From: an uncultured Lachnospiraceae bacterium
GTDB taxonomy: Bacteria; Bacillota; Clostridia; Lachnospirales; Lachnospiraceae
Assembly: GCA_902779445.1 (NCBI GenBank)
Contig: CACZBM010000006.1
Location: 1-64,000, forward strand
Direction: 5' to 3'
Length of the DNA: 64,000 nucleotides
The position numbers were made by a program, and so were the translations under genes. The notes beneath the pieces were generated by a model. That model saw only the letters and a list, made by a program, of their open reading frames with translations. It ran no database searches and had not been told where the DNA came from. Of the stretch, positions 7,513-9,589 are shown piece after piece. Position 1 is the stretch's first letter. Every line of letters begins with the position of its first letter.

Positions 7513-8160
7513 TCAAATATCAAAGAGACCTTTCATGTCCCTGAAAGAAGAAATAACCGCAGCTGCATCTTTTTCATCTATGGAGCCAAAGCCGTATGAT
7601 GCAAAGATAAAAGGTACGCCGGCTTGTTCACAAGCTTCAAGGTCGCCGTCCGTATCCCCCACATAGACCGGGTTCACGAGACCGTTCCTTTTAACCAGCT
7701 CGCGGATATTATCAGCCTTACCGTTGCCGGTATTTCCGAAACACTCATAATCCGTGATACAGTTCATTATTCCGGCTTTATCGCATACCAGCTCGATATA
7801 CCCGGTCTGACAGTTACTGACTATAAAGAAAGGTACCCGTTCAGATAGATCCCTTATTGTCTCCACAACACCCGGGAAGAAAATATCGCACGGATCAGCA
7901 GTAAGCTCTTCGTGCTCATATCTGCAGCAATGCTCCATCATCCGATGTTTGCTTTCTTCTGATTCTCCCACGAAGATATTATCTGCTATCACATTCATGG
8001 GTTTACCGAACTGAGTCTTTAAAAGCTCTGAGGAAATAGGTTCCGTCCTGTGAATACCCGAGGACTTCACTGCCCGGTTCCAGGCTCTTGCAACTATTTC
8101 GGTAGAATCCCATATTGTTCCGTCTATATCGAGAATTATCCCGTCTGTTTTAATCTTCAT
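7513..8160 (-). CDS. HAD-superfamily phosphatase (phosphoglycolate-phosphatase-like)
   Basis: This 215-residue enzyme carries the HAD motifs. Motif I is DIDGT, with nucleophile Asp11 and acid/base Asp13. Motif II is Ser115 in IVSN, motif III is Lys148, and motif IV is GDTDGD with Asp169 and Asp173. The helical cap between motifs I and II is typical of Gph/beta-phosphoglucomutase-like members. A small sugar phosphate is the likely substrate; which one is unknown. The start is ATG 8160. A promoter, TTGACC (8196-8191)/TACTAT (8173-8168), ends seven bases before this ATG, so the mRNA may be leaderless. The following oxidoreductase is probably co-transcribed. Confidence 0.87.
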   Translation of the reverse strand: MKIKTDGIILDIDGTIWDSTEIVARAWNRAVKSSGIHRTEPISSELLKTQFGKPMNVIADNIFVGESEESKHRMMEHCCRYEHEELTADPCDIFFPGVVETIRDLSERVPFFIVSNCQTGYIELVCDKAGIMNCITDYECFGNTGNGKADNIRELVKRNGLVNPVYVGDTDGDLEACEQAGVPFIFASYGFGSIDEKDAAAVISSFRDMKGLFDI

Positions 8161-8167
8161 GTGCCCT

Positions 8168-8196
8168 ATAGTAAACGTAATCGTTCCCACGGTCAA
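8168..8196 (-). promoter_or_regulatory. Promoter of the HAD gene, leaderless geometry
   Basis: TTGACC (8196-8191), 17 bases, TACTAT (8173-8168), then seven bases and the ATG at 8160. The predicted +1 falls on or next to the A of the start codon. An AGGG at 8167-8164 is too close to the ATG to be a normal ribosome site. Confidence 0.65.
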
Positions 8197-8240
8197 GAAT
8201 ATGCTGATCAAAGCGCCAAAAGTAAATGTCTCCACACGAA

Positions 8241-8281
8241 ATAAAGAAGGGACATCATCTAGTGTTTCCTCGATGCCCCTT
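8241..8281 (-). terminator. Terminator of the structured RNA
   Basis: On the minus strand, 8281-8272 pairs with 8256-8247 in a 10-bp stem (AAGGGGCATC/GATGTCCCTT, one G-U) with a 15-base loop, followed by CTTTATTT. A competing perfect 7-bp pairing uses GGGACAT at 8308-8302. Confidence 0.75.
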
Positions 8282-8517
8282 CAGCCTATAGATCCTTCTT
8301 CATGTCCCAATGGAAGGTACCTCCTTAATGCATCCGTTCCGCGCTCATCTATTAAATCGGGCCTGTCGTCCTCACCTGGTGTCGGTAAGACTCTTATATG
8401 TTATTCTTGCCCGCTTCCGCTTTAACGATGCCTTTTCTGCAGATCAACGGTTACTTGATTAAATTTTCTCTGACCGATCCTTTCTACGGTCGTTGTGTTC
8501 ACCTCTCTTGTTTTGAT
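8241..8517 (-). ncRNA. Structured non-coding RNA with own promoter and terminator
   Basis: A consensus promoter (TTGACA/TATACT) at 8552-8524 and a strong terminator at 8281-8241 bound about 277 bases without a gene on either strand. The RNA can fold into nested helices: hairpins 8491-8487/8476-8472 and 8459-8455/8447-8443; a long-range helix 8431-8424 with 8338-8330 enclosing 8413-8409/8362-8358 and, inside that, 8391-8384/8376-8368. Near the 3' end, 8308-8302 can pair with 8255-8249, competing with the terminator stem. I do not recognise the class. It has no T-box, tmRNA, RNase P or SRP signature. The Rfam raiA motif and other large Firmicutes RNAs are candidates to test. Confidence 0.7.
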
Positions 8518-8523
8518 GCTGTA

Positions 8524-8552
8524 AGTATATCTCTGTCTTCATTAATTGTCAA
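8524..8552 (-). promoter_or_regulatory. Consensus promoter of the structured RNA
   Basis: A perfect TTGACA (8552-8547), a 17-base spacer and TATACT (8529-8524). It reads away from the DegV gene and into the 277-base non-coding region, with no open frame following. Confidence 0.85.
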
Positions 8553-8671
8553 CACAATTATTGTAATTATATGTATTTGTTTACGTACAAAATGGTATAT
8601 TGCCGTAATTGTTTATACATTTTTCGACTTTCCGGTTTTCGGTACAACCTCACGTAGTCCGCATTACTACG

Positions 8672-8700
8672 TTGTTTGCGGCATTTTTTTATGCTAAAAT
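8672..8700 (+). promoter_or_regulatory. Promoter of the DegV gene, leaderless geometry
   Basis: TTGTTT (8672-8677), a 17-base spacer and TAAAAT (8695-8700) end seven bases before the ATG at 8708. No Shine-Dalgarno sequence is present in that interval. A small hairpin (CCGCA/TGCGG) overlaps the -35 side. Confidence 0.6.
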
Positions 8701-8707
8701 ACACAAC

Positions 8708-9589
8708 ATGAGAGTGGCGGTATTAACAGATACAAACAGTGGAATTACGATAGATGACGGCAGAAAAGACGGGATCTATGTTCTTCCCATGCCTTTTATA
8801 GTTAATGACAAGGAATATCTCGACTGCATTAATCTTTCCCACGAAGAATTCTATACTTTCCTGTCTCAGGGTGCTGCTGTCACAACATCACAGCCCGCTG
8901 CCGGAGACGTGATATCCATGTGGGACCGTATCTTTGATGAGGGATATGATGAGATCGTATATATCCCCATGTCCAGCGGACTCTCAGGATCTTGTGCCAA
9001 CGCGATCATTTATGCTTCCGATTATGACGGGAAGGTTCAGGTGGTCAATAACCAGCGTATTTCCGTTACCCAGCGTCAGTCTGTTCTGGATGCTGCGAAG
9101 CTTGCAGCAAAAGGCCTCTCTGCTTCCGAGATCAAGGGTATACTTGAGCGGGTAAAGTTTGAATCAAGTATATACATCACCGTAGACACCCTTGATTACC
9201 TTAAAAAGGGCGGCCGGGTTACCCCCGCCGGAGCTGCTCTTGCGAAGATACTGAATCTGAAACCTATTCTTTCCATTCAAGGCGAAAAGCTTGATGCTTT
9301 CTCCAAGTGCAGAGGTATCAAACAGGCGAAGACCATCATGCTGAATGCCATAAAAAAAGATATCGATACACGTTTTGGCGGCTATGATCCTGCTTCTCCA
9401 TCTGTATGGCTGGCTGTTGCCCATTCCAATAATCTGGAAGCAGCTAAAGAATTTGCAGATGAAATAATGGCTGCATTTCCCGGCTGTGATATCTATATCG
9501 ATTCACTGCCATTAAGCATTTCCTGCCATATCGGCCCGGGTTCTCTTGCTATTGCATGTTCAAAGATCGTTCCGGAATGTTCAGACTGA
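8708..9589 (+). CDS. DegV-family fatty-acid-binding protein
   Basis: This 293-residue DegV protein has both family signatures: TTSQP at 59-63 and SSGLSGS at 89-95, with a C-terminal lid that includes the CHIGPGSLAIAC segment. DegV (FakB) proteins bind a fatty acid and present it to the kinase FakA for phosphorylation; no fakA gene is in the window. The start is ATG 8708, where the DegV fold begins; a longer frame to 8609 has neither ribosome site nor homology-like sequence. No Shine-Dalgarno precedes the ATG and the -10 box is seven bases away, so the mRNA may be leaderless. It faces the SGNH gene with a 4-base gap. Confidence 0.9.
   Translation: MRVAVLTDTNSGITIDDGRKDGIYVLPMPFIVNDKEYLDCINLSHEEFYTFLSQGAAVTTSQPAAGDVISMWDRIFDEGYDEIVYIPMSSGLSGSCANAIIYASDYDGKVQVVNNQRISVTQRQSVLDAAKLAAKGLSASEIKGILERVKFESSIYITVDTLDYLKKGGRVTPAGAALAKILNLKPILSIQGEKLDAFSKCRGIKQAKTIMLNAIKKDIDTRFGGYDPASPSVWLAVAHSNNLEAAKEFADEIMAAFPGCDIYIDSLPLSISCHIGPGSLAIACSKIVPECSD

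Follow-up and report, generated by a model that had tools for sequence, protein, structure and literature searches.

A conserved structured RNA gene with a terminator-abutting mini-ORF in a genus of Lachnospiraceae

Several described bacterial RNAs bear comparison with the locus presented here. The raiA motif RNA or ModT (RF03072) is likewise a standalone structured RNA of Bacillota, ~200 nt or more in length, with a promoter and a terminator of its own, and ModT functions in trans (PMC11706538). Dual-function sRNAs such as SR1/SR1P of B. subtilis are similar as regulatory-type RNAs that also carry a small ORF (PMC8501984), and leader-peptide attenuators of the trp and vmlR type (see PMC9226507) in placing a short ORF beside an intrinsic terminator. 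Sponge RNAs of the CsrB/RsmZ type share a GGAGG-bearing motif, which is repeated in some relatives of our RNA. The window (the whole 64,000-nucleotide stretch of Lachnospiraceae DNA that was analysed) encodes on its minus strand an independent structured RNA gene with its own promoter and terminator and with covarying helices (Table 1).

Table 1. The RNA unit, its elements and its neighbouring genes in the window
Feature	Position	Strand	Basis
RNA, ~277 nt	8241-8517	(-)	Promoter-to-terminator span and homologs in the genus
Promoter TTGACA-17-TATACT	8524-8552	(-)	11/12 consensus matches, best of the region
5' hairpin GACCG/CGGTC, 8491-8487/8476-8472	8472-8491	(-)	Read from sequence; counterpart hairpins in relatives
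P1, 8431-8424/8338-8330, with GCG/CGC extension 8420-8418/8343-8341	8330-8431	(-)	Strand-swap energy test
P2 CGGGC/GCCCG, 8413-8409/8362-8358	8358-8413	(-)	Compensatory change across clades
Internal loop AAGAAUAACAUAUAAGA, P2-P3 junction	8392-8408	(-)	Near-invariant in 25 aligned homologs
P3 hairpin GUCUUACC/GGUGAGGAC, 8391-8384/8376-8368	8368-8391	(-)	4/8 pairs with two-sided change in some homolog
Shine-Dalgarno AAGGAGGU	8319-8326	(-)	GAGGUA invariant in 26 homologs
Mini-ORF UUG GGA CAU GAA GAA GGA UCU AUA GGC UGA (MGHEEGSIG*)	8281-8310	(-)	Start, length and stop kept in 26/26 homologs
Terminator GAAGGGGCATCG/TGATGTCCCTTC, T-rich tract on to 8241	8246-8282	(-)	Homologs keep pairing, stem sequence varies
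DegV family (PF02645), divergent upstream neighbour	8609-9589	(+)	Pfam; adjoins the RNA in many genus genomes
HAD hydrolase, downstream neighbour	7513-8235	(-)	Pfam; orthologue downstream in only part of the genus

A sequence-only reading had described a region with no gene, driven by a perfect promoter and ending in a 10-bp terminator. The promoter is present and unsurpassed in the region, but with one deviation from the consensus it is near-perfect. The same promoter type is found in 23 of 26 homologs, and in the other three the contig begins too late for judging. The terminator is also real, but its stem counts 12 bp, followed after a 13-nt loop by TTTAT; it was missed by a simple terminator scan because of the loop length. 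No long gene overlaps the RNA on the minus strand (ORF check of 8552-8241), but the region does hold a conserved 9-codon mini-ORF.

The assignment to an unrecognised class of structured RNA stands: homologs show structure-preserving change, and the proposed comparison with Rfam, raiA included, matched no known family. Rfam 15 gave no gathering-score match for the window RNA and no relevant family even at E<=10, and its search with the homologs gave no family match either. The suggestion of a divergent raiA is not supported: at E<=10 the raiA model (RF03072) has no match to the RNA's region of the window, and it has none over the cut-off in 48 genus genomes and 60 family genomes (strict filters). 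No description of the RNA was found in the main texts of the open-access literature.

Queried with the window RNA, BLAST picked up six close relatives within the genus (80-87% across the 3' two thirds) and, weakly, longer relatives; with a long relative as additional query, 26 of 48 genus genomes were reached. For the 140-nt core, a covariance model from 26 sequences matched 42 of the 48 at E<=0.1; at E<=1.4e-4 it still matched 39, of which 13 lay outside the model-building set. Strains KH1P17 and AD3010 belong to the genus, and a near-identical unit is found in NK4A144 and MC2017. The RNA is single-copy in the window genome. The flank formed by MBOAT, SGNH hydrolase and DegV (Pfam names, gene order) is kept in many genus members, so that the RNA gene was inherited in place; the MBOAT-SGNH-DegV flank is common to strain KH1P17 and DegV/HAD to NK4A144. 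Judged by this comparison of sequences, the RNA is real, conserved and free-standing.

Most relatives of the long type carry a second 10-codon ORF (ORF1) towards the 5' end, closing on a further SD-like motif, for example MYRLVNLIIN*. It was detected automatically in seven genomes (G034, G017, G024, G021, G025, G020, G041) and is also present in G005, while G036 reads with the same 5' ORF in the alignment. In G008, G016 and G004, too, there is a 10-codon ORF1 (MIIIISDRKI*, MREFISDRKI*), followed by a motif copy that has no AUG. In the alignment, the window copy is without a stretch of ~75 nt, having lost the second 5' mini-ORF and the AUG-less motif copy, and is therefore a shortened family member; with its UUG start and the lost 5' ORF and motif it could be degenerating. 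In the long type, the AUG-less 5' motif copy is predicted to pair with the live 3' copy. This pairing is unsupported by compensatory changes and is without its 5' partner in the window; it is treated as conjecture. The G036 match L014/L047 was discarded as a chance match inside a coding gene. Note that a cysteine-rich (zinc-ribbon-like) protein of ~145 aa with no Pfam match is encoded convergently downstream of long-type loci in six genomes (L096, L091, L094 and others), and that a Clostridiales-1 RNA (RF01699; L015:1779-1914, minus strand) directly follows the G021 long-type homolog in convergent orientation.

Folded on its own, the sequence does only mildly better than its shuffles (z -2.1, 5/200), so the structure claim is borne by comparative evidence. 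The three nested helices of the sequence-only reading are all found where they had been placed; the 5' hairpin is present and has its counterpart in relatives, and the comparative check for compensatory changes supports P1, P2 and P3. Six pairs of P2 and P3 have changes on both sides in the 26 aligned homologs, CGGGC:GCCCG of P2 being swapped with AUGGC:GCCAU between clades. Such two-sided changes occur in 26 cells, where shuffles give 7.8 and slid controls 0-10. P2, P3 and a 3-bp start-codon hairpin together have 97.8% of cells paired in the 26 homologs versus 32-59% with a slid partner. P1 varies too much to be aligned by columns and was thus tested by the duplex energies of own versus swapped strands: own duplexes have a mean of -13.7 kcal/mol, swapped partners of -9.3 kcal/mol, and 0/5000 permutations were as good. 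The 3' strand of P3, GGUGAGGAC, is almost invariant among homologs. The large and near-invariant internal loop between P2 and P3 carries RUAUAAGA; it is altered in G042, the most divergent aligned homolog.

The most informative part of the RNA is the Shine-Dalgarno/mini-ORF/terminator unit, which the earlier reading did not notice. The best-conserved string of the 3' region, GAGGUA..GUCCAAUGGGA, reads as Shine-Dalgarno, spacer and start codon, and opens an ORF of 9-16 codons in 26/26 homologs (9-11 codons in all but one). G044 has a 15-nt in-frame insertion. A start codon, ATG or TTG, is always kept, and the stop is TAA, TGA or TAG. From this stop to the terminator foot there are 0 to 5 nt in 25 of the 26 homologs; G007, whose stem is lengthened by extra pairs, has 9 nt. 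The conserved translatable small ORF expected of a dual-function sRNA is thus found here, with the geometry of Shine-Dalgarno, start and stop conserved and translation predicted. Terminators a few nt past stop codons are general among B. subtilis genes and possibly in many other bacteria (PMC7858274), so that the abutting stop mainly argues for an ordinary real ORF and does not on its own point to a special mechanism. The peptides of this ORF2 diverge by clade (MGHEEGSIG, MGQEVMDESSR, MGTEEAISNS, MGCAVDSFR). Its codon-position bias is weak, third positions being the most variable only in the long type; this variation is not clearly protein-like, and peptide selection is therefore not claimed. 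Clades differ in the peptide but keep the start, the length and the place of the stop; translation as such therefore probably counts for more than the peptide, and is probably what selection bears on.

An exact-motif scan of 84,980 named genomes yielded 52 stretches, mostly from Lachnospiraceae (including Roseburia faecis, Agathobacter ruminis, Blautia and many rumen MAGs) together with two from Clostridium. Outside the genus, too, tiny ORFs begin at the motif, in many cases preceded by a promoter; the exceptions are some chance matches and a small number of normal gene starts. Of 24 other-genus motif RNAs with a recognisable terminator, 19 have a Shine-Dalgarno-preceded ORF of 5-9 codons abutting it, where shuffles expect 1.56; this count uses a wider stop window than a first run, which gave 14/28 versus 1.35 expected. 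Some of their peptides are recurrent (MKLLEIH*, MNTEVK*/MNTEFK*), and certain related RNAs have nothing but MG* or MGR* after the motif. As the P1-P3 body cannot be clearly made out beyond the genus, these RNAs may be true homologs of the window RNA or may share a module with it. Many weak matches of the family-wide model search fit the SD/AUG motif only; in the family sample 27 genomes match at E<=0.01, ~4 of which may be chance since E-values are per genome. The G472/L143 match was rejected as the real start of an SDR gene. No match was found in viral contigs that would point to phage origin.

Four further observations were made. G463 (L152:1170-1760) carries a tandem array of about nine SD/UCCAAUGGGA motif copies spaced by ~60-75 nt, several with tiny ORFs. 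A separate set of RNAs (L169, L170, L187, L156, L179, L150, L154, L155) has the same opening motif and a 15-19 aa peptide MG.....QYESG.A*. An RNA common to two Clostridium species (L202 and L162, minus strand) combines the motif with the near-terminator ORF MKIQI.S..FT.ELES.L*. Two tandem skipping-rope RNAs (RF02924; L190:896-1099, minus strand) share a contig with a mini-ORF RNA.

The best and most likely reading is that of a standalone structured RNA that would also recruit ribosomes. Its fuller form, held at about even confidence, takes the RNA as a separately transcribed member of a structured family that Rfam lacks, usually single-copy, that acts in trans or is engaged by ribosomes and is not the leader of the next gene. 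In this reading the conserved P1-P2-P3 body with its large internal loop may bind a protein or RNA partner. Ribosomes would be expected to load on the 3' unit of Shine-Dalgarno, start and an ORF of 9-16 codons ending on the terminator foot, and to translate this mini-ORF; part of the RNA's job may lie in the loaded ribosomes, for protection, sensing or sequestration, or in the tiny peptide. Were the RNA instead a riboswitch-like attenuator, as the sequence-only reading had considered, its 3' end would switch through a 7-bp pairing of 8308-8302 with 8255-8249. This pairing exists in the window sequence, but 7/7 pairs are possible in only 4/26 homologs, and it is a by-product of two G-rich/C-rich strings. 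No conserved mutually exclusive terminator/antiterminator pairing was found in the 26 homologs, nor a constant downstream gene in the same orientation; among relatives the downstream genes vary, and in at least six long-type genomes one conserved gene lies there in convergent orientation. A cis attenuator is therefore unlikely, and the switchable 3' end is not supported, whereas an RNA separate from its neighbours and acting in trans, as the same reading had also proposed, fits these variable and often convergent genes. A cis-acting leader in general, where mini-ORF translation or a ligand governs terminator read-through into the downstream gene (here HAD hydrolase), would suit the overlap of the mini-ORF stop with the terminator foot and the HAD hydrolase found downstream in G000, G008, G016, G004, KH1P17 and NK4A144. 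Unrelated or convergent genes in other relatives, the lack of conservation of the competing pairing and a promoter-like site ahead of the HAD start make it quite unlikely.

It is doubtful that the RNA is the mRNA of a conserved micro-peptide whose translation is controlled by a long structured 5' UTR: the strong Shine-Dalgarno, the kept start, ORF length and stop, the ORF1 of long-type relatives and the recurrent peptides of other genera would agree with the peptide being the product, but ORF2 peptides differ strongly by clade, helices and internal loop are better kept, and the motif of some related RNAs opens only MG* or MGR*. A decoy titrating 30S subunits or initiation through start-stop mini-ORFs is suggested by the Shine-Dalgarno, AUG and minimal ORFs (MG*, MGR*, MGK*) of related RNAs, sometimes several per RNA; the window copy has a single live motif, so that stoichiometry would need very high expression, and this explanation is given little credence. 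Sequestration of CsrA through GGAGG motifs, in the manner of CsrB, could draw on the presence of CsrA in 39/48 genus genomes and on the array of G463/L152. However, CsrA occurs in 16/27 (59%) of the family-sample genomes with a model match at E<=0.01 and is absent from 11, compared to 208/397 (52%) overall; the GGA of the Shine-Dalgarno is not invariant (GAGAGGU in many), and the window's genus has essentially one motif per genome. As csrA presence does not track the motif and GGA is not invariant, CsrA titration is unlikely, in our estimate extremely so; neither multiple invariant GGA sites nor csrA dependence was found. A wider version of the ribosome-recruiting RNA is tentative and on balance improbable: a family-wide Lachnospiraceae class, possibly reaching Clostridium, of structured bodies with a terminator-abutting mini-ORF, whose function would be to engage ribosomes, e.g., to sense the translation state or to hold 30S subunits. 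If true, this would be an RNA of a functionally new kind and not an sRNA that incidentally encodes a peptide.

An RNA absent from Rfam and conserved in gut and rumen Lachnospiraceae adds to the short list of bacterial structured RNAs, and its strict Shine-Dalgarno/mini-ORF/terminator layout offers a sharp handle on function as well as a search pattern for relatives across many genera. It also differs from the systems it resembles. In contrast to CsrB/RsmZ, the window RNA has a single motif, with a GGA that varies and a distribution independent of CsrA. Unlike leader-peptide attenuators, it has neither a constant downstream gene nor a conserved alternative pairing. It differs from raiA/ModT in its conserved motifs and in escaping the raiA model, and the main text of the ModT paper (PMC11706538) does not use the terms "open reading frame" or "peptide". 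Compared to SR1/SR1P, for which the comparison concerns the ORF, the ORF of the window RNA family is just 9-16 codons long and abuts the terminator.
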